Source: Bacteroidia bacterium (lineage in GTDB: Bacteria; Bacteroidota; Bacteroidia; Flavobacteriales; Flavobacteriaceae). Taken from it: a stretch of DNA of 39,647 nucleotides. The DNA lies in NCBI GenBank assembly GCA_018679315.1, contig JAHHLF010000080.1, positions 1 through 39,647 on the forward strand, given 5' to 3'. The translations under genes and the position numbers were made by a program. Within the stretch, counting starts at the first letter, position 1. Each line of letters begins with the position of its first letter. Of this stretch, positions 1,144-35,123 are shown one piece after another. The notes beneath the pieces were generated by a model. It saw only the letters and a program-made list of their open reading frames with translations, did not search any database and had not been told where the DNA came from.

Positions 1144-1553
1144 AATTCATAAAGTTTTTACTCGTCGGAATATTTTTCGGGATTGTACTAGTGAAATCCG
1201 AAGCGGTTAGCTGGTATCGTATCTATGAGATGTTCAAATTTGAATCCTTCCATATGTACGGCATTATCGGTACGGCTGTGATCTTAGGCGTTCTTGCCGT
1301 TGCCCTCATCAAGCGTACTAAACTGAAAGACTTTCAAGGCAATGAGATAGAAATGCCGGATAAGGACAAAAGTTTTACCCGCTATTTTGTCGGAGGGAGC
1401 ATCTTTGGACTAGGATGGGCAATTGCTGGCGCATGCCCCGGCCCTATGTATGTGCTTTTAGGAACGGGTGTCTGGACGATCCTGATCGTGATCGCTGCTG
1501 CTGTTCTCGGTACGTTTGTTTACGGCTTGCTCAAAGACAGGTTACCGCATTAA
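1140..1553 (+). CDS. YeeE/YedE family protein (DUF6691 type), second half of the split transporter
   Basis: The ORF track starts this at 1053, inside the preceding gene. I place the start at the ATG at 1140, which overlaps the upstream stop as ATGA and gives 137 residues beginning MKFIKFLLVG. It has about four membrane segments and the motif AIAGACPGP near residues 95-103, the partner of the GGCTSGH motif in the first half, again with a conserved cysteine. The two short proteins together resemble one full YeeE. The 3' end overlaps the convergent GH16 gene by 4 bases, so there is no room for an intergenic terminator. Sulfur-compound transport is inferred from the family. Confidence 0.87.
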   Translation: MKFIKFLLVGIFFGIVLVKSEAVSWYRIYEMFKFESFHMYGIIGTAVILGVLAVALIKRTKLKDFQGNEIEMPDKDKSFTRYFVGGSIFGLGWAIAGACPGPMYVLLGTGVWTILIVIAAAVLGTFVYGLLKDRLPH

Positions 1554-2392
1554 TTGGAATACACCCTGATATAGTCTATGACGAATTCCTGAGGGAAAAT
1601 GGAATCATCAATATCGGGCCCTCCGAAATTCCCGCCTACAGCAGTGTTCAGGATCAAGTAGAAATCCTGGTTAAAAGGCCAGTGCTCTACCGTAAAAGTG
1701 GGAGGAAAATAGGTGTACAACAACACATCATCCACAAAGAATTCAATGCTGTTAGAAGTCCAATTGGCCACAAAAGTATGGAAGCCTTCTTCGATATCGG
1801 GGATTGCAGTGGTCTTGGTATTGATCGTATTTCCTGAACTCGCCTGGGTATGTACCGAGTTAAAGACTTCATCGGGATTTTTGCCCACATACTCCAGAAT
1901 GTCGATCTCGCCGCAGGTAGGCCAGCCTACATCCTCTATATTGGCACCCAGCATCCAGATCGCCGGCCAGACACCAGTTCCCACTGGCAGTTTCGCCCGG
2001 GCTTCAATACGTCCATAGGTGAATTCTACTTTATCTTGTGTAGTGATACGGGTAGATGTATACGTTCCGCCATCATTAAGAATGTTGATCGTAAGCATAC
2101 CATCCTTGACCTCGTGGTTGGTATCCGTATAAAGCTGAGGTTCGTTATTTCCCCAACCACAGATTCCCTGATCGCAACCGTCGCCTAATTCAAAATTCCA
2201 ATCGGCGGTATTGAGTTCCGTTCCCTCGAATTCGTCCTCCCAGATCAATACTGGTTCCGCCGGAGGGTCCGGATCGGGCATTGGATTGGGAGTGGCATCG
2301 GGGTTTGGTGTTTGCATAGTATCGGAGTCATTAGAATCTGAACTGCAAGCACCTATTAATAATGTGAGTATAAGAATCCACATACGTGACAT
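1550..2392 (-). CDS. GH16 family beta-glucanase (laminarinase-like) lipoprotein
   Basis: 280 residues. A short signal peptide ends in the lipobox LIGAC (Cys16), followed by a Ser/Asp/Pro-rich linker to about residue 47, so a lipid-anchored enzyme on a tether is expected. The catalytic domain (about 50-278) contains the GH16 signature EIDILE at 162-167, the beta-bulge form typical of laminarinases and other beta-1,3-glucanases; E162 is the expected nucleophile and E167 the acid/base. The upstream WPAIWML segment is also standard. Predicted role: endo-cleavage of laminarin or a similar beta-1,3-glucan at the cell surface. The context agrees: it is divergent from a GH149-GH17-GH30 operon. No T9SS tail or carbohydrate-binding module is present. 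Exact polymer specificity is inferred. Confidence 0.92.
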   Translation of the reverse strand: MSRMWILILTLLIGACSSDSNDSDTMQTPNPDATPNPMPDPDPPAEPVLIWEDEFEGTELNTADWNFELGDGCDQGICGWGNNEPQLYTDTNHEVKDGMLTINILNDGGTYTSTRITTQDKVEFTYGRIEARAKLPVGTGVWPAIWMLGANIEDVGWPTCGEIDILEYVGKNPDEVFNSVHTQASSGNTINTKTTAIPDIEEGFHTFVANWTSNSIEFFVDDVLLYTYFPPTFTVEHWPFNQDFYLILNTAVGGNFGGPDIDDSIFPQEFVIDYIRVYSN

Positions 2393-2540
2393 TTTCTTTC
2401 ATTTTAGTTAATGCGGAAAAGATACTATTATTTTTATTCAAAAAATGGTTTTGTTTAACTTCTGGAATCAAGCCAGCAAGGACAGATATGTAGATTTTTA
2501 TCAAACACCTACACTAATTGTGCCTTGACTGGATATGATC

Positions 2541-2565
2541 GTCATAGAAAATGACAATACATTTG
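2541..2565 (+). promoter_or_regulatory. Candidate regulatory region of the glucan operon: inverted repeat plus -7-like box
   Basis: In the 259-base spacer between the GH16 and GH149 genes there is an inverted repeat GTCAT-AGAAA-ATGAC (2541-2555), immediately followed by TACATTTG (2558-2565), matching TAnnTTTG. The ATG at 2652 is 86 bases further. No convincing -33 TTG is seen. No regulator gene lies within the locus, so control would come from elsewhere. Confidence 0.3.
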
Positions 2566-2651
2566 CTTAATTGCGATTAATAATTGTATTATTATGACCC
2601 TTAAATACAGCCAACAAAAAAAAATCCAACATCTAAATCAAGTAAGTGCTT

Positions 2652-5600
2652 ATGGGCGAACTGAAATACGTTCAAATAGGAAAAGAAGGGTATTTTAAGA
2701 TCTCCGATGTAGATAAAATTCGGCCTTTTTTTATGAGCATCGTAAGCGATTCCAACCATTGGATGTTCATTTCAAGTAATGGTGGATTGACTGCAGGTAG
2801 GAAGAATGCCGAACATTCTCTGTTTCCCTATTATTCAGATGATAAAATCACTGAATCCATCGAAATTACAGGCAGTAAGACGATTCTTCACGTACACAGG
2901 GAAGGGGGAAGTCAAATTTGGGAACCCTTTTCAGATAGATATTACGGCTTGCATGATATCAGCAGAAACCTGTATAAAAATTTGTATGGCAATACGATCA
3001 TATTTGAGGAGATCAACCACGATCTAAAGCTCAGCTTTCGATATCAATGGAATAGCAGCAATGTATACGGCTTCGTGAGGACTTCAACTCTAAGTAATGA
3101 AGGAGAAGAGGTTTCGATCTCAGTCCTGGACGGCATTCAAAATATTATCCCTTATGGAGTCGGCAGTGAATTGCAGAACCGGCAAAGTAACCTGGTAGAT
3201 GCTTATAAAAGAAGTGAGCTTTTAGAAGATTCGGGTCTTGGAATATATGCCCTAAGCGCAATTATTGTAGATAGAGCAGAACCGAGTGAAGCCTTAAAAG
3301 CGAATATTGCATGGTCTCTTGGCCTGGAAAAGCCTGCCTGCCTGGTGTCTTCCTTACAGCTAAATAAATTCAGGCAGGGAAAATCTATTACCGGAGAAAA
3401 GGATGTCAAAGCAGAGAAAGGGGCATATTTCGTAAACAAGGATCTTGTTCTAAATGCCAAGGATGAAAAAAGTTGGATGATACTGGCCAACGTGAACCAG
3501 GATCAAACTGCTATAGCAGAAATTGCGCAGGCCATACGCAGCGATGCACAACTTGCTGCTAAAATTGCAAAAGATATAGCTAAGGGAACAGAACGACTTG
3601 TCAGCTTAACTGCGGCATCCGATGGAATACAACTGACAGCCGATCATCTAAAGGATACACGTCATTTTGCGAATACACTGTTCAATATCATGCGAGGTGG
3701 GATATTCGATGACAACTACACAATTGAAAGATGGGATCTTGAGACATACTTGCTAAATGCCAATAGCAATATCTATTCAGAATTTGAAAAGGATATTTCG
3801 GCACTGCCTGAAAAATTTTCCATTACTGATCTTATAGATCTTGCTGCCAAGACTGATGATCCCGACATTAAACGCTTGTCTCAGGAATACCTGCCGCTTA
3901 AATTCAGTCGAAGGCATGGTGATCCAAGCCGTCCCTGGAATGTTTTTTCGATCAATACGCGTAGCGAAATTGATGGAAGCAAAATTTTGGATTATGAGGG
4001 GAATTGGCGGGACATCTTTCAGAACTGGGAGGCTCTTGCCCACTCCTATCCTGGATTCATCGAAGGCATGATCCACAAGTTCCTGAATGCCACAACTTTT
4101 GACGGGTATAATCCATATCGGGTAACCAAGGGTGGATTCGATTGGGAAACCGTTGAGCCAGACAATCCTTGGGCTTATATAGGGTATTGGGGAGATCACC
4201 AGATCATTTATCTATTAAAATTTCTCGAGTTCGCTGAAGACCATACCCCCGGGCAATTGGAAAGCTTTTTTAACCAGGAGATCTTTGTTTATGCCAATGT
4301 GCCTTATCAGATCAAACCTTATCCAGACCTATTGCAAGATCCGAAGGATACAATTGTTTTTGATGAGTCATTGGATCATACTATTCGTCAAAAGCGTGAT
4401 GAGCTGGGGGCAGATGGTGCGCTAATGGAAAGCAAGCAACACTCAATTTATAGGGTAAATTTCATTGAAAAGCTCTTGGCCACGGTTTTAGCCAAACTAT
4501 CAAATTTTATTCCCGAAGGAGGTATCTGGATGAATACCCAAAGGCCGGAATGGAATGATGCAAACAATGCGCTCGTAGGAAATGGCGTATCAATGGTCAC
4601 CTTGTACTATCTCAGGCGTTTTCTGGATTTCATGAATACGTTGCTGGCTAATTCCAAAAGTGAAGAATATCTCATATCCGTTGAATTGATAACCTTTTTC
4701 GAAGGGATCAACCAGGCCTTTCAGTCTCATTCTGCAATATTGGATAGTTCCATCAATGATAGAGATCGCAAAACGGTCGTAGATGGCCTGGGGAACGCGG
4801 CAAGTGACTTTAGAAGTAGGATATATGAAGAAGGATTTTCAGGGGACAAAAGATCCATTACAAGAGAAGAAATATTGGAATGTGTCGGCCTGGGACTTCA
4901 ATATTGTGAGCACTCAATTGAGGCCAATAAAAGGAATGACAATCTATACCATGCGTACAATTTAATGACGGTTGAAAATCAGGACGAAATTTCTATTTCC
5001 TACTTGAGTGAAATGCTGGAAGGACAAGTTGCCATCTTAAGCTCAGGGTACCTGTCGCCAGAGGAATCTCTGAAAGTCCTTGATGCCTTAAAGGGCAGCG
5101 CTTTATTTAGGGAGGATCAATTTAGTTATGTGCTATATCCCAACAAAGCCCTGCCTCGGTTCATGGAGAAAAATAATATCCCTGCGGAAAGCGTAAAAAG
5201 TTCCAGCTTGTTATCGACTTTGATCCGGGAGGGAAACACGCAAATAATTGATAAAGATATTGATGGCAAGTTCCACTTTAACGGTAATTTCAAAAATGCA
5301 AATGATCTTTCGGTGGCTTTGAAGGCATTACCTAATACTGAGATGTTTCCCATGTCTGACGATGATATAGAAGGAGTCTTGCAAATATTTGAAGATGTCT
5401 TTGATCACAAGGCTTTTACCGGCAGGTCTGGAACTTTCTTTGGCTATGAAGGTTTGGGTTCCATTTATTGGCATATGGTCTCTAAACTATTGCTGGCCGT
5501 TTATGAAACTTGCTGGCGGGCTATTGAAAGCAAGGCAGATGAAGTGACAATTGGCAAGCTTCTGGAGCATTATTATGAGATTAATGAAGGCATTGGGGTT

Positions 5601-6068
5601 CATAAATCTCCAGAGCTTTATGGGGCTTTCCCGACCGATCCCTATTCACATACGCCCCAGGGCAAAGGAGCACAACAACCAGGAATGACCGGTCAGGTGA
5701 AGGAAGACATCCTGAGCCGCTACGGCGAATTAGGTATCTATGTCCACGATGGTTTCCTTGGGTTTAATCCCTGCCTTTTGCGCAAGGAAGAGTTCCTTAC
5801 AAAGGACGAAATATTCGAATATGTAGACCTGAATGGCAAGTCGACCCAATTGAAAATTGAGGCCGGCTCACTGTGTTTCACTTATTGCCAGGTCCCTGTT
5901 ATATTTACGCTGGATGAAAGTGAAAGCTTGGAAATAATGTATCAGGATGGAGAATCAGTTCGTGCCGAATCGCTTAGATTGGACTTGGAAAATAGCCGTA
6001 AGATATTTGGAAGGACTGGCGAGATCAAGCAGATCAAAGCACATATAGACAAAGCTGTGCTCAATTAA
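2652..6068 (+). CDS. GH149-type beta-1,3-glucan phosphorylase (GH94-related)
   Basis: The ORF track opens at a GTG at 2646; the ATG two codons later is the more natural start, giving 1138 residues. The size, far above GH94 enzymes of about 800, and the segment RPEWNDANNALVG (W634-N635-D636) fit GH149, where the aspartate corresponds to the catalytic acid of the GH94-type WND motif. A second family-like block, GAQQPGMTGQ, lies near residues 1007-1015. There is no signal peptide, so it should act in the cytoplasm. Known GH149 members reversibly phosphorolyse beta-1,3-glucans to glucose 1-phosphate plus a shortened chain. Being first in an operon with GH17, GH30 and a sugar symporter supports this. 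The alternative is another large GH94-clan family such as GH161; I prefer GH149 from length and the laminarin context. Confidence 0.8.
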   Translation: MGELKYVQIGKEGYFKISDVDKIRPFFMSIVSDSNHWMFISSNGGLTAGRKNAEHSLFPYYSDDKITESIEITGSKTILHVHREGGSQIWEPFSDRYYGLHDISRNLYKNLYGNTIIFEEINHDLKLSFRYQWNSSNVYGFVRTSTLSNEGEEVSISVLDGIQNIIPYGVGSELQNRQSNLVDAYKRSELLEDSGLGIYALSAIIVDRAEPSEALKANIAWSLGLEKPACLVSSLQLNKFRQGKSITGEKDVKAEKGAYFVNKDLVLNAKDEKSWMILANVNQDQTAIAEIAQAIRSDAQLAAKIAKDIAKGTERLVSLTAASDGIQLTADHLKDTRHFANTLFNIMRGGIFDDNYTIERWDLETYLLNANSNIYSEFEKDISALPEKFSITDLIDLAAKTDDPDIKRLSQEYLPLKFSRRHGDPSRPWNVFSINTRSEIDGSKILDYEGNWRDIFQNWEALAHSYPGFIEGMIHKFLNATTFDGYNPYRVTKGGFDWETVEPDNPWAYIGYWGDHQIIYLLKFLEFAEDHTPGQLESFFNQEIFVYANVPYQIKPYPDLLQDPKDTIVFDESLDHTIRQKRDELGADGALMESKQHSIYRVNFIEKLLATVLAKLSNFIPEGGIWMNTQRPEWNDANNALVGNGVSMVTLYYLRRFLDFMNTLLANSKSEEYLISVELITFFEGINQAFQSHSAILDSSINDRDRKTVVDGLGNAASDFRSRIYEEGFSGDKRSITREEILECVGLGLQYCEHSIEANKRNDNLYHAYNLMTVENQDEISISYLSEMLEGQVAILSSGYLSPEESLKVLDALKGSALFREDQFSYVLYPNKALPRFMEKNNIPAESVKSSSLLSTLIREGNTQIIDKDIDGKFHFNGNFKNANDLSVALKALPNTEMFPMSDDDIEGVLQIFEDVFDHKAFTGRSGTFFGYEGLGSIYWHMVSKLLLAVYETCWRAIESKADEVTIGKLLEHYYEINEGIGVHKSPELYGAFPTDPYSHTPQGKGAQQPGMTGQVKEDILSRYGELGIYVHDGFLGFNPCLLRKEEFLTKDEIFEYVDLNGKSTQLKIEAGSLCFTYCQVPVIFTLDESESLEIMYQDGESVRAESLRLDLENSRKIFGRTGEIKQIKAHIDKAVLN

Positions 6069-6177
6069 TGCGCTCTAATAAGGAATGATAATCTTATGAA
6101 TGTTCAACAAGATATTTTTTTCAGAAATAAATATATGACTCGATATAAACCAACCCATTTTGCAAAAGTTAATCAAC

Positions 6178-7473
6178 ATGAGAGGATTCTTAAAGATCCT
6201 GGTACTCGTTTTTGTTCTTTCAGGATTTAATTCATGCAAGGAAACCCATAAAGACCTGGAAGAAAAACGATCAGATATAAAAAAGGAAGTGACAGCAAAA
6301 GAGATTTTGGGTAATCCCGAATATTTAGCCATCTCCTATGGAGGCTACAGGCAAGATTCCCGTGATATTCAACCCACTGTAGAAGAATTAAAGGATGACA
6401 TGCGCATATTGTCAGCCATGGGAATTAAAATTGTGCGAACTTATAATGTGCAGTTGGCTCAGGCCTCAAATCTCCTTAAGGCCATCAGTGAGCTGAAACA
6501 GGAAGATGCCGAATTTGAAATGTACGTCATGCTTGGTGCCTGGATCGATTGTAAAAATGCCTGGACAGGTGAAACACCAGATCATGAGGTGGAAAGTGAG
6601 CAGAATGAAGGTGAAATTGCCCGTGCCGTTGCCTTGGTAAAACAATATCCGGATTTAGTAAAGGTACTTGCAGTTGGCAATGAGGCCATGATAAAATGGG
6701 CGACCAGTTATTATGTGCAACCAAAGGTCATCCTGAAGTGGGTAGTTCATTTGCAGGAGCTAAAAAGTTCTGGCGAATTGCCAGCGGATCTTTGGATAAC
6801 CAGTTCCGATGATTTTGCTTCCTGGGGGGGCGGTGATCCTGAATACCACACCGAAGACCTGGCAAAGTTGGTCCATGCAGTTGATTATATTTCCTTTCAT
6901 ACGTATCCTTACCACAACACTCACTACAATCCTCAATTTTGGTGGGTTTCGGAGGAAGAATCACAGAGCTCCGATAAAGATAAAATTGACGCTGCTATGT
7001 TCCGAGCCATAGAGTTCGCTAAGTCTCAGTATAAGGCTGTCTCTGATTATGTAAAAAGCCTGGGGGAAGAAAAACCGATCCATATTGGGGAAACCGGATG
7101 GGCAACTATCTCAAACGGACACTACGGTCCGAATGGCTCAAAGGCAACGGACGAATTAAAAGAGGCGTTATACTATCAACATATCAGAGAATGGACAAAT
7201 GCTTCCGGTATCTCATGCTTTTATTTTGAAGCTTTTGATGAACCTTGGAAGGACTCGCACAATAAAAAAGGCTCAGAAAACCATTTTGGATTGTTTACCG
7301 TTGACGGCCAGGCAAAGTATGCACTTTGGGATTTAGTGGACCAGGGCATTTTTGAAGGATTAACTCGAAATGGAAACACTATAACAAAGACGTACAACGG
7401 AGATAGGGAGGCTTTGATGCTGGATGTTCTTGTGCCCCCTACCAAAGAAGAGCATGCTGTAGTTCTCCAATGA
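6178..7473 (+). CDS. GH17 family beta-1,3-glucanase lipoprotein
   Basis: The track start is a TTG at 6160; the ATG at 6178 gives a clean signal peptide MRGFLKILVLVFVLSGFNSC with lipidation at Cys20 and a mature protein of 431 residues in total. GH17 hallmarks are present: the acid/base in VGNEAM (E169), the motif ISFHTYPYH after it, and the nucleophile in IGETGWAT (E305). Bacterial GH17 enzymes of this kind attack unsubstituted beta-1,3-glucan and laminari-oligosaccharides. It sits 109 bases after the phosphorylase and 46 bases before the GH30 gene, consistent with one operon. The enzyme is predicted at the outer membrane or periplasm; whether it is exo- or endo-acting is not visible. Confidence 0.9.
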   Translation: MRGFLKILVLVFVLSGFNSCKETHKDLEEKRSDIKKEVTAKEILGNPEYLAISYGGYRQDSRDIQPTVEELKDDMRILSAMGIKIVRTYNVQLAQASNLLKAISELKQEDAEFEMYVMLGAWIDCKNAWTGETPDHEVESEQNEGEIARAVALVKQYPDLVKVLAVGNEAMIKWATSYYVQPKVILKWVVHLQELKSSGELPADLWITSSDDFASWGGGDPEYHTEDLAKLVHAVDYISFHTYPYHNTHYNPQFWWVSEEESQSSDKDKIDAAMFRAIEFAKSQYKAVSDYVKSLGEEKPIHIGETGWATISNGHYGPNGSKATDELKEALYYQHIREWTNASGISCFYFEAFDEPWKDSHNKKGSENHFGLFTVDGQAKYALWDLVDQGIFEGLTRNGNTITKTYNGDREALMLDVLVPPTKEEHAVVLQ

Positions 7474-7519
7474 GCAATGAGCAGACTCCTTTAGCTGTTG
7501 ATGAATGAAAAAGTAAATC

Positions 7520-9001
7520 ATGAATATCAAATCAAACATAGTTGTCCTTATGACACTGATTCTAAGTGCTTGTACTCCCCAGAACAACTTGGATATCGAG
7601 GTATTTGAAACTTCGGCCCGGGGAAACAAACTAACACCCATTGCAACAGGAAAAAGAGTAAGTGCAGACTCTGAAATTAAGTTATTACCTGAACGGGAAT
7701 TCCAGACCATTACTGGTTTCGGCGGTTCCTTTACAGAATCATCGGCCTATTTGTTAAACCAACTTGGTCCGGAAAACCGAAAAAATATAATCAATGCGTA
7801 TTTTGGCGCGGATGGAGCCCAATATTCCCTAACCAGAACCCATATAAATTCTTGTGATTTTTCTCTTAGTAATTATTCTTACGCAGAGGTTGAGGGTGAC
7901 ATGGAATTGGAACATTTTACGATCGAGGAAGACAAAGAAGACATCATACCCTTCATCAAAGAAGCCCAGGCATTATCTGCTGAAGGATTTAGGATCATTT
8001 CATCACCATGGACTGCCCCACCCTGGATGAAGGACAACAACAAATGGGTAGGCGGCAAATTAATGCCCGAATATTATGATACCTGGGCACTCTTCTTTTC
8101 AAAATATATCGATGCGTACAAAGAAGAAGGAATTGATATCTGGGGGATAACCGTCGAAAATGAGCCTCTTGGTAATAATAGCAATTGGGAAAGTATGCAC
8201 TTCACGCCAGAAGAAATGACGGACTTTGTACAAAATCACCTGGGACCCAAATTAGAAGCTGATGGCAAGGGGGATATAAATATATTGGGATATGATCAAA
8301 ACAGAGAGCACCTGAATGAATGGGTAGACGAAATGTATAGAGATGAAGCAGCTTCAAAGTATTTTTCCGGCGTGGCGGTTCATTGGTATGCAAGTACTTT
8401 TGAAGTGTTTCCTGAGGCCTTGCAATATGCGCATCAAAAGGCGCCTGAGAAACACATAATTCAATCGGAAGCCTGCGTGGATGCACAGGTTCCCGTATGG
8501 CAAGATGATGCCTGGTATTGGTCTAAGGAAGCCACGGATTGGGGTTATGACTGGGCACCAGAACAGGACAAACACCTGCACCCAAAATACGTGCCCGTGT
8601 ATCGGTATGCTCGTGATATCATTGGATGTTTGAACAATTGGGTCGATGGATGGGTAGACTGGAACATGGTATTGGATCGTCAAGGAGGTCCCAATTGGTT
8701 TAAAAACTGGTGTGTAGCACCCGTCATCGTAGATCCCGAACAGGACGAAGCCTATTTTACCCCTCTGTATTATACCCTCTCGCATTTCAGTAAGTATATC
8801 CGACCCGGTGCCGTACGGATCGGATTTGAAACCACAGACGATGCCCTGTTGGTTACAGCGGCCAAAAACCCTGATGGTTCTATAGCAGTAGTAGTACTCA
8901 ATCAAGGTATGGAAGCAAAGGAAGTAGTACTTTCTTTGGGTGACAAGGATGCAGGATTGAAGATTGACGCCCAGGCCATACAAACCATAATAGTCAACTA
9001 A
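7520..9001 (+). CDS. GH30 family glycosidase lipoprotein (likely beta-1,6-glucosidase on laminarin branches)
   Basis: 493 residues with a lipoprotein signal ending LILSAC (Cys18). The GH30 fold is shown by the N-terminal GFGGSFTESSAY block, the acid/base in TVENEPLG (E215) and the nucleophile in IIQSEACV (E317), followed by the C-terminal beta-domain (about residues 420-493). Related GH30 enzymes in marine flavobacterial laminarin loci remove beta-1,6-linked glucose side chains, making the backbone accessible to GH17 and GH16 enzymes. That activity is inferred from context; GH30 also includes beta-glucosylceramidase-like and xylanase members. It is followed after 24 bases by the GPH symporter. 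Confidence 0.9.
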   Translation: MNIKSNIVVLMTLILSACTPQNNLDIEVFETSARGNKLTPIATGKRVSADSEIKLLPEREFQTITGFGGSFTESSAYLLNQLGPENRKNIINAYFGADGAQYSLTRTHINSCDFSLSNYSYAEVEGDMELEHFTIEEDKEDIIPFIKEAQALSAEGFRIISSPWTAPPWMKDNNKWVGGKLMPEYYDTWALFFSKYIDAYKEEGIDIWGITVENEPLGNNSNWESMHFTPEEMTDFVQNHLGPKLEADGKGDINILGYDQNREHLNEWVDEMYRDEAASKYFSGVAVHWYASTFEVFPEALQYAHQKAPEKHIIQSEACVDAQVPVWQDDAWYWSKEATDWGYDWAPEQDKHLHPKYVPVYRYARDIIGCLNNWVDGWVDWNMVLDRQGGPNWFKNWCVAPVIVDPEQDEAYFTPLYYTLSHFSKYIRPGAVRIGFETTDDALLVTAAKNPDGSIAVVVLNQGMEAKEVVLSLGDKDAGLKIDAQAIQTIIVN

Positions 9002-9025
9002 TAGTACGAATCAACCAAAATAATT

Positions 9026-10591
9026 ATGAGTCAAGTAAAAGTACTTTCTAAAGACAAAGTCCCTATTGGGCAAAAAGCCGCTTTTGGGGCAGGTCATTTT
9101 ATACTGAACATTTTACCGGGAACACTTGGTGTCTTTATTCAGTTCTTTTTACTCACCGCATGGGGGGTTGACCCTTTATGGGCAGGACTTCTGGGAGGAT
9201 TGCCCAGAATATTCGACGCTATTACCGACCCGATTATGGGATTTATTTCGGACAATACTAAATCGAGGTTTGGTAGGAGAAGACCCTACATTTTTATAGG
9301 GGCACTCATAAGTGGTATTCTCTTCTTTTTGATGTGGCAATTGGATGATAATGCATCACAAACCTATATCATTTGGCATGTCATGGTGATCCAAATATTA
9401 TTCCTTATCGGGAATACAATGTTTGCTACACCTTTAGTAGGTCTTGGTTATGAAATGACATCAGATTATAATGAAAGAACCCGGTTGATGAGTTTTGCCA
9501 ATAGTATGGGACAGGTTGCCTGGATGATCGTACCCTGGTTGTATGTTATTATACCGGACTCAGAGACCTTTAATACGCAAACGGAGGGCGTTCGTACTAT
9601 GGCTCTTATTGTGGGAGCTATGTGTGTGGTCTTTGGTATTCTTCCCGCATTATTTTGCAAGGGTATTGATGCTTCACATATGGAAAACCGAAAAGAGATC
9701 AATTTCAAAACACTGTCAACTAACATGAAAGATCTGTTTAAGGGCATTATTCAAGTGTCTAAAAACAAGCCCTTTATGAAGTTATGTGGCGCTACGTTCT
9801 TGGTTTTTAACGGCTTTCAGCTTGTAGCCGCATTCGGCGTCTTCATTATTGTATTCTATATATATAACGGCAGCTATGAATTAGCAGGTACCTGGCCCGC
9901 ATGGTTCAATACGATCAATGCGATGCTAACAGCCTTTATTGTGATCCCAATTATTGCAAAAATGGCCAATAAATGGGGGAAGAAAAATGCATTTATAATA
10001 TCCACTGTCTTGTCAATTATCGGTTACATCTTAAAATGGTGGGGATTTGATATTGAACTCAATAATTCATTCAACCAAACAGGATTTGGAAAAGGATTAA
10101 ATTCGGCCGTTGGTTCACTTTTCGAGACGATAAATCCAACATTGGAAAGTATTGGGATGTCCTGGTTTTCTATAGATCCTGGAAGTGATATACCATGGCT
10201 CATCTTTGTCCCAATTCCATTATTTGCTTTTGGTATGGGAGGATTATTTACGTTGATGATGTCGATGACGGCTGATGTATGTGATCTGGATGAGTTAGAA
10301 AATGGTATGCCCAGAAAAGAAGGTACATTTGGCGCCATTTATTGGTGGATGGTCAAATTAGGACAAGCCATTGCACTTGTTTTAGGCGGGTTGATTTTGA
10401 AGATCGTAGGATTTGATCCGAATCTAACGGAACAATCCTTAGAAACCATGAATAGACTAAGAATCGCCGATATAATTGTCCCGGCATCAACGGCTGCCCT
10501 GGCTGTCTGGGTCATGTGGAAGTATTCTCTGTCGGAAGAACGAGCCCGGGAGATTAAAGCCAAATTGGAAGAACGAAGGGGCGTATTATAG
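9026..10591 (+). CDS. GPH-type MFS sugar:cation symporter
   Basis: A 521-residue integral membrane protein with about 12 membrane segments. Features of the glycoside-pentoside-hexuronide symporters are visible: an early GLPRIFDAITDPIMGFISDNT region, the following SRFGRRRPYI loop, and LGYEMTSDYNERTRLM (about residues 140-155). It is longer than typical GPH carriers because of an extra hydrophilic loop around residues 345-385. It sits between secreted glycosidases and a cytosolic GH17, so I infer that it carries gluco-oligosaccharides or glucose across the inner membrane. No SusC/SusD pair accompanies it in the window, so the outer-membrane entry route is unknown. Confidence 0.88.
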   Translation: MSQVKVLSKDKVPIGQKAAFGAGHFILNILPGTLGVFIQFFLLTAWGVDPLWAGLLGGLPRIFDAITDPIMGFISDNTKSRFGRRRPYIFIGALISGILFFLMWQLDDNASQTYIIWHVMVIQILFLIGNTMFATPLVGLGYEMTSDYNERTRLMSFANSMGQVAWMIVPWLYVIIPDSETFNTQTEGVRTMALIVGAMCVVFGILPALFCKGIDASHMENRKEINFKTLSTNMKDLFKGIIQVSKNKPFMKLCGATFLVFNGFQLVAAFGVFIIVFYIYNGSYELAGTWPAWFNTINAMLTAFIVIPIIAKMANKWGKKNAFIISTVLSIIGYILKWWGFDIELNNSFNQTGFGKGLNSAVGSLFETINPTLESIGMSWFSIDPGSDIPWLIFVPIPLFAFGMGGLFTLMMSMTADVCDLDELENGMPRKEGTFGAIYWWMVKLGQAIALVLGGLILKIVGFDPNLTEQSLETMNRLRIADIIVPASTAALAVWVMWKYSLSEERAREIKAKLEERRGVL

Positions 10592-10612
10592 ATCGTTAAA
10601 TAAGAGCAAATA

Positions 10613-11500
10613 ATGTCATACATAGGTAAGGAAAAACGATTGGCCCTTTCCGGCCTGGATTACTCCGGGAAAAGTACAAAGGAACTACGTAAGATGTGTC
10701 GGCAGATACTTGAAGAGGGCATGCATGGCTTATGTTTCAGCCCCTATGAGGACGGTCAAAAACCGGGGGAACAGATTTCTGAGACACAAATACGCAGAAG
10801 GATGGAGATCATACAGCCCTATACCAGCTGGATTCGCTCTTTTTCATGCACTGATGGTAATGAGGAAATCCCTCGAATCGCCCATGAATATGGTATTAAA
10901 ACAATGGTAGGGGCCTGGTTAGGAGACGATCCTGAGATCAACAAAAAGGAGATTCAAAATCTTATTGAACTGGCTAACAAGGGGTATGTTGATATCGCCG
11001 CCGTGGGCAACGAGGTTATGTACCGAGGTGATCTTTCCGAGGATGAATTATTAGCATTTATCGCAGAAGTCAAGGAAAATGTAACGGATATTCCTGTCGG
11101 TTATGTTGATGCCTATTATGAATTTACAGAACGCCCCAGAATAACCGAGGCTTGCGATATTATTCTAGCCAATTGTTATCCTTTCTGGGAGGGTTGCGAT
11201 TTTGATTATTCCTTGCTCTACATAAAGGATATGTACCGCAGGGCTCAACATGCAGCAAAGGGAAAGAAAGTAATAATTTCGGAAACGGGCTGGCCCAGCC
11301 AAGGGACAAATCTGGAAGGTGCATTTCCGGGTTATGAAAGCGCATTGAAATATTTCATGAATATGCAGAAGTTAGCCGCGGAAGAAGACATTGAGATCTT
11401 CTACTTCTCCTCATTCGACGAGCCTTGGAAAACAGGCGCTGAAGGCGATGTGGGCGCTTACTGGGGTTTATGGGATAAAGAGGAAAAACTGAAATTCTAA
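10613..11500 (+). CDS. GH17 family glycosidase without signal peptide (predicted cytosolic)
   Basis: 295 residues starting MSYIGKEKRL with no signal peptide or membrane segment. It has the GH17 acid/base in AVGNEVMY (E134) and the nucleophile in ISETGWPS (E224), and ends in the family's FSSFDEPWK and YWGLWD blocks. It is the second GH17 of the locus, much shorter than the lipoprotein and clearly diverged from it. Placed 21 bases after the symporter, it probably acts on imported beta-1,3-gluco-oligosaccharides, possibly preparing chains for GH149, or as a transglycosylase, which some GH17 proteins are. The compartment is inferred from the missing signal sequence. Confidence 0.85.
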   Translation: MSYIGKEKRLALSGLDYSGKSTKELRKMCRQILEEGMHGLCFSPYEDGQKPGEQISETQIRRRMEIIQPYTSWIRSFSCTDGNEEIPRIAHEYGIKTMVGAWLGDDPEINKKEIQNLIELANKGYVDIAAVGNEVMYRGDLSEDELLAFIAEVKENVTDIPVGYVDAYYEFTERPRITEACDIILANCYPFWEGCDFDYSLLYIKDMYRRAQHAAKGKKVIISETGWPSQGTNLEGAFPGYESALKYFMNMQKLAAEEDIEIFYFSSFDEPWKTGAEGDVGAYWGLWDKEEKLKF

Positions 11501-11523
11501 CAGCTTTAATTTACTTCCTCCTA

Positions 11524-13065
11524 CTATTTTCGTACCAATAATTCCTGTACCTCTTCCAACGTCTTGCCTTTGGTCTCTATAACAAACTTCTTGACAAAGA
11601 ATACCGCTATTAAGGAAAGCAGCGCATAGATGGCAAAGGTCATGGTCGGGCCCAAATTGGACAATTCCCAGGGAAATACTTGAGTAACCGAAAAGCTAAC
11701 AAGTGAATTGAAGAACCCCACCGCAGAAATGGCGATCCCTTTGATCTTAGTTGGGAAAACCTCAGAGAACAATGTCCACATGACCGGCCCTAAAGAAATT
11801 GCAAATGAAGCGACATATAGTAAAATGGCTATAAGCACCAAATTTGCATTGATCTGAATGAAATTGGTGATCTGATTCCGTTTAAAATCAAGGAACTGAT
11901 CTGGAGGCAGTAGTGTCTCGACTTCAGCAAACAATGCCGATTGACCATCAAACGACCTGCCGTTCAATCCGGCCAATGCTGATCTGGTTTCTTCATTGCT
12001 CACTTTCTCCAAGGTAGTGTCATTAAAATCATAAGTAGCCTCGTTGAAGGCCCAGGTCGCCATAGCCAAGGCAATTGTCATACATGTAGTGCCTATGAGC
12101 AACAATGGTTTACGACCTAACTTATCGATAAGCCAAATGGCCACAAGGGTGAATGCCAGATTCGTTAGTCCCACTACTATAGCTTGCAAGAATGAAGAAT
12201 CTGTGCTGCCACCCGCCTGTTCAAAAATGGTGGGTGCGTAATAAAAGATCGCGTTGATCCCTGTTATCTGTTGAAAAAAAGCGATACCAAAAGCAATGAT
12301 CATGATCGTAGCATACTTGCTCTTGAAAATATCTGATAACTTGCTTTTTTCTTCTTTAACAGAAATACCTCTTTGGATCTCCTCAATCGTTATTTCGGCA
12401 TACGCTTCCCCTCCAATCTTTGTGAGGATCTTTCGCGCTAGTTTAACCTTATTCAATTTCTGAATCAACCATCTGGGACTCTTTGGTACTGTAAATAAGG
12501 ATATAAAGTATACCAAAGCAGGTATGGCCTCCACTCCAAGCATCCATCTCCAGCTCTCCCCTTCAATATTGACCAGGAAATAATTGGAAAAATAGGCTAC
12601 GGAAATACCGATGACAATATTCAATTGGTTGAAGGATACCAAGCTTCCTCTCAATTTGGGTGGCGCGATCTCTGCTATATAGATCGGAGCGATCAAAATG
12701 GCGCCCCCAATTCCTATTCCCCCAATGATCCTTGCGGTGATAAATTCTATATAGCCTGTTGCTAAAGCCGACCAACTTGCAGAAACTGTGAAAAGGGCAG
12801 CTACGACGATCAATACACTTTTACGACCAAACTTATCTGCCATTGGACCGGCCATCAAATTACCCGCCATAGCACCAAAGACCACACAGCCAACAGAGAA
12901 GCCCAGCATCCATTCCGTCATATCAAAGTAGATCGTGATACCTTTCACTGCACCGGAAATTACCGCACTATCAAATCCTAATAAAAAGCCACCTAATGCA
13001 ACGATCAGACTGATTAAAATGGTATAGGATTTATTCATTTTTACTGCAGGAGCGGTATTTTCCAT
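11524..13065 (-). CDS. Sugar porter (SP) family MFS transporter
   Basis: 513 residues with the classic sugar-porter motifs: GFLLGFDSAVISGA in helix 1, DKFGRKSV in the helix 2-3 loop, PKSPRWL at the end of helix 6, QQITGINAIFYYAP in helix 7, DKLGRKPLL in the helix 8-9 loop, and FSEVFPTKIKG plus ETKGKTLEEV towards the C terminus. A long hydrophilic insert (about residues 345-400) separates helices 9 and 10. The helix 7 QQITGINAI sequence is typical of glucose or xylose proton symporters. It is convergent with the GH17 gene, 23 bases apart, with no terminator seen between them. Import of the glucose released by the glucanases is a reasonable inference. Confidence 0.9.
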   Translation of the reverse strand: MENTAPAVKMNKSYTILISLIVALGGFLLGFDSAVISGAVKGITIYFDMTEWMLGFSVGCVVFGAMAGNLMAGPMADKFGRKSVLIVVAALFTVSASWSALATGYIEFITARIIGGIGIGGAILIAPIYIAEIAPPKLRGSLVSFNQLNIVIGISVAYFSNYFLVNIEGESWRWMLGVEAIPALVYFISLFTVPKSPRWLIQKLNKVKLARKILTKIGGEAYAEITIEEIQRGISVKEEKSKLSDIFKSKYATIMIIAFGIAFFQQITGINAIFYYAPTIFEQAGGSTDSSFLQAIVVGLTNLAFTLVAIWLIDKLGRKPLLLIGTTCMTIALAMATWAFNEATYDFNDTTLEKVSNEETRSALAGLNGRSFDGQSALFAEVETLLPPDQFLDFKRNQITNFIQINANLVLIAILLYVASFAISLGPVMWTLFSEVFPTKIKGIAISAVGFFNSLVSFSVTQVFPWELSNLGPTMTFAIYALLSLIAVFFVKKFVIETKGKTLEEVQELLVRK

Positions 13066-30275: not shown

Positions 30276-31778
30276 ATGAAAAGGATCTTAACTTTCATAA
30301 TGGTATTGGCATGCGCAGTTGGAAGCGCACAAACAGCAAATGATGTCTTATTATTCAGCCTGGAAGATCAGCAGGGTACAGCTCGATTCCAGGGTATGAG
30401 TGGCGCTTTTGGTGCCCTGGGAGGCGATATGTCGGCCTTGAATATCAACCCGGCGAGTTCAGCTGTATTCAACAATTCTATTTTCTCTATCACAGGTACC
30501 CACTACGAAAAAGAGAATGCCACAACTTATGGTGGAGGATTCCGAAACATGGACGAAAACCGTGTAGAGCTAAATCAATTAGGCGGTGTATTCGTTTATA
30601 AAAATACGTCCGATTCCGAATGGAAAAAGATTGCTTTTGCCGTGAACTATGATATGGTACAACAATTCAATAATGAGATCGCGGTATCAGGTAACAGTGC
30701 AGAAGGCATAGATAATTACTTTCTTGCTTTTGCACAGGGAGTACCTTTCGGATCGATCCTGATACAAGGCAACGAACTCATTGAAGATGCCTATCTGGAT
30801 ATTGGTGCCAGTTCAGGTTTTGGCGCACAACAAGCCTTCCTTGGATATTACGGTGGCCTGCTAGATCCTACAGATATGGACGAAGCAACAAGCACTTATG
30901 TGCCTACAGCTCAATATAATTCAGTGAATCAGGAATACAGAGAGAGCACTTCTGGTTATAATAGTAAGTTCACGGTGAATTTTGCGGGACAGCATGAAGA
31001 GAATCTTTATGTTGGGGCCTCCTTAAATTTTCATACGATATTTTATGACAAGGCAACCTTCCTTGATGAAACCGGATATGAAGCTGCTTCGCCAGTGCAA
31101 AGCACAATCTTCGATAATCTCTTACATACGGAAGGTTCCGGTTTTTCTTTCCAGTTGGGTGCAATTGCCAAGGTAAACGAAAACATACGCCTTGGAGGAA
31201 GTTATCAGTCTCCTACATGGTATCGTCTGACGGACGATACGGCACAGCGGATAGATAGCGACCTGGCTGATGACGATATTGGATTTATCGATTTTAATAT
31301 CATTAACCTATTTGAAGAATATAAGATCAAAGTACCAGCCAAATACACCGGAAGTGTTGCATTGGTCTTTGGCCGCGACGGATTGCTAAGCTTTGATTAT
31401 TCCTATCAGGATATGGCAAATGCAGAACTTCAGCCTACTTCCGACCCTTCATTTTCAATTGTGAATGATCAGATCGCAAACAACTTTGGGGATATAAATA
31501 CTTTTCGCATCGGAGCGGAATACCGTATAGATGAAGTAAGCCTTAGAGGTGGATATCGTATGGAAGAAAGTCCGTATGTGGATGGAAATACAGTGGGAGA
31601 TCTTACAGGTTATTCCCTTGGATTGGGGTATTCTTTTGGTGGAAGCCGCTTAGATATAGCCTTTAATCAGTCTGAAAGGGATATCAATATGCCCTTATAC
31701 GATGTAGGAATAAACACCCGGGCATTTAGAAACCTGGAAAATACGCAAGTTGCACTTACGTACACGTTGAACTTTTAG
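30276..31778 (+). CDS. OMPP1/FadL/TodX-family outer membrane protein
   Basis: 500 residues with a cleavable signal peptide (MKRILTFIMVLACAVGSAQ). The mature N terminus reads RFQGMSGAFGALGGDMSALNINPASSAVF, the family's plug region, followed by alternating amphipathic strands to a C-terminal LTYTLNF ending in Phe, as outer-membrane barrels do. Family members take up hydrophobic substrates such as long-chain fatty acids or aromatic compounds. The substrate here is not known. It follows the low-complexity lipoprotein after 27 bases. It overlaps the convergent T9SS gene by four bases. Confidence 0.88.
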   Translation: MKRILTFIMVLACAVGSAQTANDVLLFSLEDQQGTARFQGMSGAFGALGGDMSALNINPASSAVFNNSIFSITGTHYEKENATTYGGGFRNMDENRVELNQLGGVFVYKNTSDSEWKKIAFAVNYDMVQQFNNEIAVSGNSAEGIDNYFLAFAQGVPFGSILIQGNELIEDAYLDIGASSGFGAQQAFLGYYGGLLDPTDMDEATSTYVPTAQYNSVNQEYRESTSGYNSKFTVNFAGQHEENLYVGASLNFHTIFYDKATFLDETGYEAASPVQSTIFDNLLHTEGSGFSFQLGAIAKVNENIRLGGSYQSPTWYRLTDDTAQRIDSDLADDDIGFIDFNIINLFEEYKIKVPAKYTGSVALVFGRDGLLSFDYSYQDMANAELQPTSDPSFSIVNDQIANNFGDINTFRIGAEYRIDEVSLRGGYRMEESPYVDGNTVGDLTGYSLGLGYSFGGSRLDIAFNQSERDINMPLYDVGINTRAFRNLENTQVALTYTLNF

Positions 31779-33187
31779 CGTTTTAAACTGAAATGACTAC
31801 GGATGGTGTTGGCTACTACAACGCCTTCTTCATCCCTGGAATATTCAAGTCGGAACCAGTAATCAGAAGATGGCATAGGTCGTCCGTTGAAGGTACCGTC
31901 CCAGCCGAGTGTTACCTCATCTAATTGCTTTAGCAATTTCCCGTATCGGTCGAAAATAAAGACAACCGGATTTGTCAGGGTTTCTATGCCCAAGACATTC
32001 CAGTCATCATGGATCCCATCCCCATTCGGGGTAAAGAATTTTGGATAGCCCACAACAAGGAAGGGAATAGGTTCTGTTGTACCACATCCATTCTTATCGT
32101 TAATGACAAGGGTGTTTTCACCCGGGGGGACATCTACGAATATTGGGGAATCCTGAAAAGGACCGTTATTGATAGAATATTCATAACTACCTGTGCCCTG
32201 AACAAAGACTTCAATAATATTCCGGTCCGACAGATCTTCAAGAACATCGATCCGATCAAGGACAGGTATCCCATAAAAAGTGATCAGGATATCATCCGTT
32301 ATGACGGTAGCTAATGTCGTTTCAATAGAGACAAAATAGCGTCCGGAATTGGGGCTTGTAACCGTATATGTAGTTTCTGCCGCTCCTGAGGCCAATATCT
32401 GATCAACAACACCGTCATCTTCATAATCCACAGACCAGGTAACGTTGGCAATGTCGGGTCCTGCAGGGGAATTCAATGCACTCAAAACGATATCCGGATC
32501 TCCTTCACAGGCAATAATGTCCAGGCCAAGGAACTCGTCCCGTAGTGTACAATCCAGGGCAGTGTCCTGGTCGGCATCAACCGAGGTGCCGGTAAATGTC
32601 AAAATGTAGGATTCAGGATCTCCGTCGAAATTTGTATTAAAATTGTTGATGAGCAGATAGTATATTTCACCGGCCTGTACGTCTAGCCATTCGTCATAGG
32701 TATTCTGACTCCCCACTAAGGGTGGCGCACCGGCCTGTCCATTTTCCGGGTTGACTCCTATTCCGGTAAATCGGGTAGTATTCACTTCATAGTTGCAGCG
32801 AATTGGTTGGGCCGTGCCATTGCTGATGCCAGCGCAATCCGAATCAGGACCGTATAAGGCAAAATCCCATTCTGCTGTAATTGTCATACCGGTTGAGGGA
32901 AGAGCCTCTATGTCAAATCCGATCTGACCGTCTGTTCCTGCCCGAAATACGAACCAGGAGGTGTTATTCTCAATATTGGCAGAACTTACGCTCCCTTTTT
33001 CTAAACAACCTGATTGGCGGATCACATCGGGATCAAAATCATCGATATCGCCCCCTCCATCTGCAATTCCAACGATAGGTGCATCGGCACAAACAGGAAT
33101 AGCAGTACGGCAATCAGGTGCATTTTGTGCACTAGCGACCGTTGTAAAAAAGAAAATAATACTAAGGGATAAGATTAGCAGGCGCAT
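31775..33187 (-). CDS. T9SS type B sorting domain-containing secreted protein
   Basis: The track begins at a TTG at 33205; the ATG at 33187 gives a proper signal peptide MRLLILSLSIIFFF..ASAQ and 470 residues. An N-terminal domain starting DCRTAIPVCADAPI holds a PPC-like beta-sandwich with WFVFRAGTDGQIGFDI and a closing YYLLINNFN. Then come Ig-like segments, and the C-terminal gliding-motility-type sorting domain with FFTPNGDGIHDDW, VFIFDRYGKLLKQL, GWDGTFNGRPMPSSDYWF and a terminal Arg. It is exported by Sec, then T9SS, and should be surface-bound or released. The ligand is unknown. It is a paralogue of the next gene. Confidence 0.88.
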   Translation of the reverse strand: MRLLILSLSIIFFFTTVASAQNAPDCRTAIPVCADAPIVGIADGGGDIDDFDPDVIRQSGCLEKGSVSSANIENNTSWFVFRAGTDGQIGFDIEALPSTGMTITAEWDFALYGPDSDCAGISNGTAQPIRCNYEVNTTRFTGIGVNPENGQAGAPPLVGSQNTYDEWLDVQAGEIYYLLINNFNTNFDGDPESYILTFTGTSVDADQDTALDCTLRDEFLGLDIIACEGDPDIVLSALNSPAGPDIANVTWSVDYEDDGVVDQILASGAAETTYTVTSPNSGRYFVSIETTLATVITDDILITFYGIPVLDRIDVLEDLSDRNIIEVFVQGTGSYEYSINNGPFQDSPIFVDVPPGENTLVINDKNGCGTTEPIPFLVVGYPKFFTPNGDGIHDDWNVLGIETLTNPVVFIFDRYGKLLKQLDEVTLGWDGTFNGRPMPSSDYWFRLEYSRDEEGVVVANTIRSHFSLKR

Positions 33188-33317
33188 TCTGAGTGGGGCT
33201 AACAACTATGGTTTTTCTAGAGTATAACTACGGCAGGCCTTATTTAGTATGCAGAAAATTGAGTTTTCGGACTATTATTCGATGAACCGCACCTATCGAA
33301 AATTAGCATGTTGGTTA

Positions 33318-35123
33318 TCAGCGTCTTAGCGCAAAGTGGTTATTTATGTAGGCAGCTTCTACACGTTGTCCTTGAACATCCATATAAGAAAGTTTGAACC
33401 AGTAGTCTGTCGAAGGTAATTCACGCCCGTTAAATGTGCCGTCCCATCCAACACTTTGCATGTCTAACTCCTTGATAAACATCCCATAGCGATTAAAAAT
33501 ATGGACGATCGGTTCCTGAAGGCTTTCAAGGCCTTCAATATGCCAGAAATCATTCGCCCCATCTCCATTAGGCGTAAAGAATTTTGGAAATCCAACTACA
33601 GTGATCTCTGCTGAAACAGAGCCGCATCCCTTTGGGTCGTTTATGGTAACCGTATGCAGGCCGGGGGCAACATTTGAGAATATATTGGAGGCTTGTATCG
33701 GGCCATTATCCAATTGATATTCATAGGGTACATCCAATTCTGTTAGTACCTGAATTGTGTTATTCTTTTGAAGATCTTCTACGATCACCTCATCTATGCG
33801 GGGCGCCAGTGAGATAGTTACACTAACTGTTTTAGTGATAGAACAATCAACCCCATTGCCCGAGTTTGTAACTGTAAGGGTATATTCTCCGTCCTGGCTG
33901 ACAAATATACTGGAGGTGTTTTCACCTGTACTCCACATATAGTCGTACTGTCCTATACCAGATATTTCGCCTATTTCAACACCAGTGGTCGATTCGCAGA
34001 TATACACATCAGTTTCAATATCCAGTTCCGGTGTTTGTACAACGGTCAGATCAAAGGATTGAGAGGCATCAAAGCAAGCCGGGTTTTCTTGCGAGCTGAT
34101 CCTGGCGAAAATTGTTACCGATCCTGCAGAAGGGGAATACAAGGCAGGAAGGGGATTAATTCCCAGCTGTGCATCAGTTGCATCCTCGTGATAGGTGACC
34201 ACAAAATCAGATGGATCCTGACTTCCCAGGACTTCAGCGTTTTTTACTTCCAGGTTATACGTTTCCAATCCTGAACAACTTACAGCATCAGTCATAGCTT
34301 GTGCTGTAGGTGCAGGGCTAAAAAATACCTGTACATCACTGATGAGATTATTTTGCGTTGTCCGGATCACCTCAACCCTGTACAAGGCAGAAGTTGTGAC
34401 GTTTAATGCGGGGTTCGTTTCCCCTGGAAGAAGCTGAAATCCGCTTCCTGTATCGGAATACCAGGTGTAGCTAAGCACATCAGTTGTCGTTGCATCCAAG
34501 ACAATGGGATCTCCCTCACATGCTGCTAAAGGGGGACCTAATAAGTTGCTGATTATAGAGCAATCCAATGCATCGTAGGGGTTTGTCACAAATATCTCAC
34601 CTGAAAATTGAATCGAGAATCCCGAGTTAGTATTGCTGAAATTATTGATCAGCAGGTAATAATCTTCTCCCGGACTTACATCTAACCAATCTTCGTATAA
34701 AAAAGTATCTGCATTGCCATTTGGATCTTCGCCCACGCCCATAAATGTCTCCATATCGCGATTATCAAAAAAGTTGCATCGCACCGGATCTCCCAGATTA
34801 TTGCAGTCATTAGTTTGGTACAAGGCAAAATCCCAATCCTCAGAGGAATCAAAGCCAATATTGAAACCCAATTGTCCGCTGGCGCCGGTTCTGAATCGGT
34901 ACCAGGCAGAATTAGACTCAATAGCTCCTGTGATCGTAGGTTCAAGGCATCCACTCGCTGAAGCGCCATTAAAATCGTCAATCCCATAGCCCATAGTTCC
35001 ACTATTCACCGGCGTATTGTTACAGATCGGGATTGCATTTACACAATCCGCTGATATCTGTGCAAAAAGAGTCGGGGACACGAATACGAATAAAAACCAA
35101 AAAAAGAGGGTTTTCCACCTCAT
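33318..35123 (-). CDS. T9SS type B sorting domain-containing secreted protein, paralogue
   Basis: 601 residues with signal peptide MRWKTLFFWFLFVFVSPTLFAQ. Domain order: the same DCVNAIPICNNTP start and PPC-like domain (WYRFRTGASGQLGFNI, YYLLINNFS), an Ig-like YTWYSDTGSGF segment, a beta repeat with FDASQSFDLTVV, a PKD-like YMWSTGENTSSIFVSQDGEYTLTV, and the type B sorting domain (FFTPNGDGANDFW to the terminal Arg). It carries one or two more Ig/PKD-like modules than its neighbour. The tandem layout, 130 bases apart on one strand, points to a duplication. An adhesin role in surface attachment or gliding is likely but inferred. Confidence 0.88.
   Translation of the reverse strand: MRWKTLFFWFLFVFVSPTLFAQISADCVNAIPICNNTPVNSGTMGYGIDDFNGASASGCLEPTITGAIESNSAWYRFRTGASGQLGFNIGFDSSEDWDFALYQTNDCNNLGDPVRCNFFDNRDMETFMGVGEDPNGNADTFLYEDWLDVSPGEDYYLLINNFSNTNSGFSIQFSGEIFVTNPYDALDCSIISNLLGPPLAACEGDPIVLDATTTDVLSYTWYSDTGSGFQLLPGETNPALNVTTSALYRVEVIRTTQNNLISDVQVFFSPAPTAQAMTDAVSCSGLETYNLEVKNAEVLGSQDPSDFVVTYHEDATDAQLGINPLPALYSPSAGSVTIFARISSQENPACFDASQSFDLTVVQTPELDIETDVYICESTTGVEIGEISGIGQYDYMWSTGENTSSIFVSQDGEYTLTVTNSGNGVDCSITKTVSVTISLAPRIDEVIVEDLQKNNTIQVLTELDVPYEYQLDNGPIQASNIFSNVAPGLHTVTINDPKGCGSVSAEITVVGFPKFFTPNGDGANDFWHIEGLESLQEPIVHIFNRYGMFIKELDMQSVGWDGTFNGRELPSTDYWFKLSYMDVQGQRVEAAYINNHFALRR

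Follow-up and report, generated by a model that had tools for sequence, protein, structure and literature searches.

The window, the whole stretch of 39,647 bases that was analysed, is the complete contig C2 of a marine flavobacterial metagenome-assembled genome (MAG; 2.45 Mb in 380 contigs, 88.5% complete). It carries a seven-gene locus that is very probably a laminarin-utilization cluster of carbohydrate-active enzymes (CAZymes), a variant 1/B module without an adjacent SusC/SusD pair (SusC/D), in which exported glucanases would feed a cytosolic GH149 phosphorylase. Laminarin, the algal beta-1,3-glucan, is a major marine carbon source. This reading rests on the profile match and active site of the GH149 protein, on the closeness of the first GH17 enzyme (GH17A) to the laminarinase FbGH17A, and on the recurrence of the cassette order in relatives, one of them taken as a Formosa strain whose cassette is laminarin-induced and whose enzymes have been assayed. 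It is also based on the placement of the MFS transporter and the cytosolic GH17 as in Muricauda, on phosphoglucomutase-family genes in the genome and on the sharing of the cassette with a second genome of the genus, G201. Formosa, Polaribacter and Muricauda have the same GH149-GH17-GH30-MFS-GH17 cassette as their established laminarin module, of which the locus is a routine representative; the missing SusC/D is a recurrent condition, already described in PMC5827456, PMC10108472 and PMC11345257.

Organization of the locus

The features of the locus, with their predicted functions, are as follows.

1550–2392, reverse strand: GH16 endo-beta-1,3-glucanase, lipoprotein, probably surface or periplasmic (PF00722, 84.5 bits)
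2393–2651: divergent intergenic region between GH16 and GH149, from the sequence; GH149 start at GTG 2646 or ATG 2652
2652–6068, forward strand: GH149 beta-1,3-glucan phosphorylase, cytosolic (NF058639, 1785 bits; 1,138 residues counted from the ATG)
6160–7473, forward strand: GH17 endo-beta-1,3-glucanase (GH17A), lipoprotein of FbGH17A type (6fcg, 659 bits; PF00332)
7520–9001, forward strand: GH30_1-like beta-1,6-glucosidase, lipoprotein, in the FbGH30 position (PF02055, 265 bits; PF17189)
9026–10591, forward strand: GPH/MFS_2 symporter, inner membrane, 521 residues (PF13347, 205 bits)
10613–11500, forward strand: signal-less GH17 (GH17B), exo-hydrolase or glucanosyltransferase, in the FbGH17B/MlGH17B position (4wtp, 121 bits; PF00332)
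11524–13065, reverse strand: SP-family sugar porter of the glucose or xylose H+ symporter type (Sugar_tr/SP, 364 bits; TIGR00879, 355 bits)

Families were assigned with Pfam and NCBIfam profiles, the two GH17 proteins scoring 36.8 and 42 bits against PF00332. The five forward genes, GH149-GH17A-GH30-GPH-GH17B, are separated by 91, 46, 24 and 21 bases and have the layout of a single operon, to which the GH16 gene is divergent and the SP porter gene convergent. All reading frames of the locus are intact, with catalytic motifs present. Promoter and terminator scans of the locus, including the GH16/GH149 intergenic region, gave nothing better than shuffled sequence. The GH16, GH17, GH30 and GH149 genes of the locus are the only ones of these families detected in the MAG, and GH3 enzymes are also encoded in it.

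The GH149 phosphorylase

The 1,138-residue protein scores 1785 bits against the GH149 equivalog NF058639 of NCBIfam (cut-off, 1150) and has no match in a Pfam scan. It aligns with the solved GH149 enzyme Pro_7066 (6HQ6) at 1617 bits over 1,126 residues, against merely 61–64 bits over about 160 residues for GH161 and cellobiose-phosphorylase chains. The GH149 active site, comprising a WND motif with the catalytic Asp, an RD motif, H959 of the phosphate site and E951 of the glucose 1-phosphate site (PMC6771811), is conserved in full in the alignment with 6hq6, and the differences between the window protein and Pro_7066 are those of natural sequence divergence only. Because the equivalog score lies above the cut-off and the 6HQ6 active-site residues are conserved, placement in GH149 is firm, and the scores set the protein apart from GH161 and GH94; its phosphorylase activity is a prediction. 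Its start reads as lacking a signal peptide.

Hydrolases and transporters

The starts of the three other forward or divergent hydrolases named as lipoproteins read as a hydrophobic stretch followed by a lipobox-like cysteine: LLIGAC-SSD in GH16, LSGFNSC-KE in GH17A (with TTG 6160 or an ATG slightly downstream as start) and LILSAC-TP in GH30. The lipoprotein assignment is softer for GH17A, as its lipobox FNSC is non-standard. The nearest solved relative of GH16 is the laminarinase ULam111 (5wut; 346 bits), and the catalytic motif EIDILE is present. GH17A, with the catalytic motifs NEA and GETGW, is closest to 6FCG, the FbGH17A laminarinase of Formosa sp. Hel1_33_131 (659 bits), and the solved relatives of GH30 are of the glucosylceramidase-like kind. 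GH17B has no signal peptide, and none of 52 homologues has a lipobox; its nearest solved relative is the beta-1,3-glucanosyltransferase 4wtp (121 bits). The SP porter scores above the TIGR00879 cut-off at 355 bits and is 91% identical to that of the congener G107.

The GPH symporter is unfused in the window; a GPH-GH17 fusion-sized open reading frame occurs in 11 relatives. Its 521-residue type is the most conserved protein of the cassette, with 79% mean identity over 16 loci compared with 64% for GH149, and in other loci a second GPH type (about 476 residues, or about 780–855 when fused to GH17) takes its place.

The preliminary description, made from the sequence of this stretch, had listed the same seven genes with the same families and coordinates, three of them lipoprotein hydrolases and two (GH149 and the second GH17) signal-less enzymes, all of which the profiles and protein starts bear out, with the reservation noted for GH17A. 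Its GH149 assignment, which a placement outside the family would have overturned, held by profile, by scores against solved relatives and by active site, and its beta-1,3-glucan reading agrees with ours.

Proposed route of laminarin use

A substrate, a reaction direction and a routing can be proposed from what the sequence shows: which genes and families are present, their signals, order and synteny, and the active-site residues. The lipoproteins GH16, GH17A and GH30, working on the cell surface or in the periplasm, would cleave beta-1,3/1,6-glucan and remove its branches. Products would cross the outer membrane through an unlinked transporter, or short ones by diffusion, and the linear laminari-oligosaccharides would then be imported by the GPH symporter. 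In the cytosol, GH149 would phosphorolyse them to glucose 1-phosphate and glucose, and GH17B would trim or rearrange chains. Free glucose would be taken up by the SP porter, and glucose 1-phosphate would enter glycolysis via phosphoglucomutase. Oligosaccharide import followed by phosphorolysis, the layout also suggested by the preliminary description, is plausible and the likely mechanism; the search for a phosphoglucomutase that it had recommended found genes of that family in the MAG.

Several points weigh against this account of the locus. Activity and expression in the window organism are predictions from DNA, and the substrates of the GPH and SP porters are only putative. GH17B may transglycosylate rather than hydrolyse; enzymes of its type are reported to act by exo-hydrolysis in Formosa (PMC6246565) and by transglycosylation in Muricauda (PMC13188888). 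The usual upstream partners in GH149 loci, namely a Y_Y_Y-domain regulator and GH2-like, Big_2-domain and PKD/CBM proteins, are absent from the window locus.

The reverse direction, in which GH149 would make storage beta-1,3-glucan from glucose 1-phosphate, is scarcely credible: glycoside phosphorylases are reversible (PMC5827456), but in nearly all relatives GH149 shares its locus with genes for exported laminarinases and sugar importers.

Comparison with known laminarin loci

The closest described system is the cluster FORMB_24690–24740 of Formosa sp. Hel1_33_131, which has the same genes in the same order as the window, GH16 ... GH149-GH17A-GH30-MFS-GH17B; it is laminarin-induced, and FbGH30, FbGH17A and FbGH17B have been assayed (PMC6246565). 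Unlike the window, it encodes three proteins upstream, one GH2-like, one of 469 residues whose function is unknown and one of PKD/CBM type, together with an MFS-GH17 fusion and a second GH17B, and it has no SP porter within the stretch read. In the chromosome taken as that of Formosa strain B, the same cassette lies at 2.538–2.547 Mb, where FORMB_24690–24740 is expected, with no SusC/D across 28 kb upstream. The laminarin loci of Muricauda (PMC13188888) share with the window the arrangement GH149 ... GH17A-GH30-MFS-GH17B, with a lipoprotein GH17A and a signal-less GH17B. They differ in that their GH30 is reported without a signal peptide, whereas that of the window has a lipobox, and in that many of them have a LuxR-type regulator as their first gene and include GH2.

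Clusters lacking susCD have been reported before. Bacteroidetes GH149 genes occur both in polysaccharide utilization loci (PULs) and in CAZyme clusters without susCD (PMC5827456, 2018), and an NS4 MAG has a variant 1 laminarin PUL without susCD (PMC10108472, 2023); these clusters resemble the window in their GH149 or variant 1 genes, their sugar transporters and their lack of susCD. Under the strict definition of a PUL, with susC/susD linked to CAZymes, neither the window contig nor the corresponding G107 contig holds one. The locus instead has the composition of a CAZyme cluster, defined as co-localized CAZymes without susCD (PMC10108472), with CAZymes and other transporters.

GH149 loci across the Flavobacteriaceae

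GH149 proteins above the cut-off were found in 71 of 201 genomes of the family. The surroundings of most of the loci were read, usually over 20–57 kb, and annotated with verified profiles, the SusC/D counts being based on verified seeds; 58 loci were assessable. SusC/D lay between −17 and +9 kb of GH149 in 33 of the 58 and was not found in 25, most of which were covered to 8 kb downstream of GH149, so that the count is soft on that side. In eight loci (G043, G047, G105, G191, G157, G184, G152 and G136), SusC/D is absent from 17 kb or more on either side. Of 47 loci in named genomes read for 10 kb to either side, 31 have no SusC/D in that span, and SusC/D is often further upstream; in L185, a Formosa MAG closely related to strain Hel1_33_131, a SusC follows GH149 at a distance of about 9 kb. 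On the GH149 tree, the SusC/D trait changes at least 7 times if only the strict eight and the window genus are scored as lacking it, and 16 times with all labels. The expectation in the preliminary description that flavobacterial glucan loci normally include SusC/D is not borne out, given these 25 loci and the susCD-less clusters reported in 2018 and 2023. Genome surveys that detect laminarin degraders by SusC/D would miss loci like that of the window, as the literature already notes, and what is added here is chiefly a tally, which shows that SusC/D often does not adjoin GH149 cassettes in Flavobacteriaceae.

The order GH149-GH17A-GH30-GPH-GH17B is widespread, with all four partners of GH149 present in 45 of the 58 loci, and the window matches the variant 1/B order of GH149, endo GH17, GH30, MFS and second GH17. 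The GH16 gene that belongs to the variant 1/B module is in the locus, though divergently transcribed and of another type than most relatives' GH16: these score about 60–343 bits against it (mostly 150–240), and only that of G107 reaches 600. In L085, the GH16 after GH17B scores 343 bits and is a possible relative.

In many GH149 loci, GH2-like proteins of about 1,050 residues and Big_2-domain proteins of 470–660 residues lie directly upstream of GH16 (for example, L065 679–5240), together with a Y_Y_Y-domain regulator. The 1,050-residue protein and its 470–660-residue neighbour were considered as SusC and SusD and ruled out by their Pfam Glyco_hydro_2_C and Big_2 domains.

Passage across the outer membrane

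A hidden Markov model scan of all window open reading frames found no SusC or SusD in the 39.6-kb contig, which begins 1.55 kb left of GH16, extending to the whole contig their reported absence from the gene block; the longest window frame besides GH149 has 601 residues. SusC/D is likewise absent from the syntenic 24.7-kb contig of G107, which has the same flanking genes.

The chances are about even that the module is one part of a split PUL, with a SusC/D pair elsewhere in the genome carrying laminarin oligosaccharides across the outer membrane. Maribacter species are reported to use laminarin with dispersed genes and unlinked SusC/D (PMC11345257), and with the MAG 88.5% complete and in 380 contigs, the laminarin pair may be unassembled. 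The search beyond the locus that the preliminary description had proposed yielded three SusD matches (C201, C282 and C324) and SusC-like receptors, among them two SusC/D sets only 31–35% identical to laminarin-locus types, and no laminarin-type pair was found. The SusC of C171 and the SusD of C201 correspond to a single pair in G107, but both fall within that range of identity, and the gene annotated beside the C201 SusD encodes an FG-GAP/ASPIC protein, not a CAZyme. The C282 pair adjoins GH65 and GH13, that is, an alpha-glucan locus. The best SusC of the genome is about 31–32% identical to those of GH149 loci, which are mostly 55–90% identical to their nearest fellow.

It is rather unlikely, by comparison, that no laminarin SusC/D exists and that hydrolysis at the surface yields short laminari-oligosaccharides, which enter by way of porins or of a plain TonB receptor. 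No laminarin-type SusC/D was found in the three genomes of the genus, all of them incomplete drafts in which unlinked SusC/D pairs are still candidates. G107 (95% complete) retains just GH16, GH149, GPH and SP at this site, and its genome as a whole yielded no GH17 or GH30 gene. There is also a precedent in the Type I GH149 clusters of Proteobacteria, which are without an outer-membrane transporter and have been proposed as scavengers of short oligosaccharides (PMC5827456). That the genus as a whole takes up beta-1,3-glucan entirely without SusC/D, with a laminarinase at the surface, entry through porins or a plain TonB receptor, the highly conserved GPH symporter and phosphorolysis in the cytosol, is unlikely; if it were so, G107 would represent its minimal four-gene form (GH16, GH149, GPH and SP).

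Decay of a canonical laminarin PUL, with SusC/D, regulator and GH2-like genes lost, would fit the repeated changes of the SusC/D trait under strict labels and the missing GH17 and GH30 of G107, but is improbable given the intact frames with their catalytic motifs and the conservation of GPH. The GPH proteins of the window and G107 share 94% identity, whereas identity at fourfold sites is only 46%, a disparity that shows strong purifying selection.

Congeners and history of the site

G107 carries the minimal version (L046 10531–18259), with GH16, GH149, GPH and SP alone. G201, the third genome of the genus, shares GH30-GPH-GH17B-SP with the window; the lack of a GH149 match there carries no weight, as the contig ends within the GH30 gene of this cassette.

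Between the window (2652–6068) and G107 (L046 11618–15046), GH149 is 71% identical, compared with 86–96% for most neighbours and 79% for PrmA, and its fourfold-site identity is 31%, where the YeeE pair, PrmA, TIM and DoxX together give about 57%. These values hint that GH149 was replaced in one lineage, possibly by a xenologue, although synonymous sites near saturation make this uncertain. The neighbourhood, a YeeE-like pair ... SP-prmA-tpiA-DoxX, is common to the window, G107 and Eudoraea chungangensis. In the last of these (L250 3671–18137), the same slot holds a GH149 from another clade, oppositely oriented, and a small GH2-like gene stands in place of GPH, GH17 and GH30.

In the window, the YeeE/YedE-type sulphur transport half-proteins overlap each other at 577–1553 and adjoin a TetR regulator truncated by the contig edge. 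At 31775–35123, two neighbouring genes encode C-terminal CHU_C type IX secretion signals.

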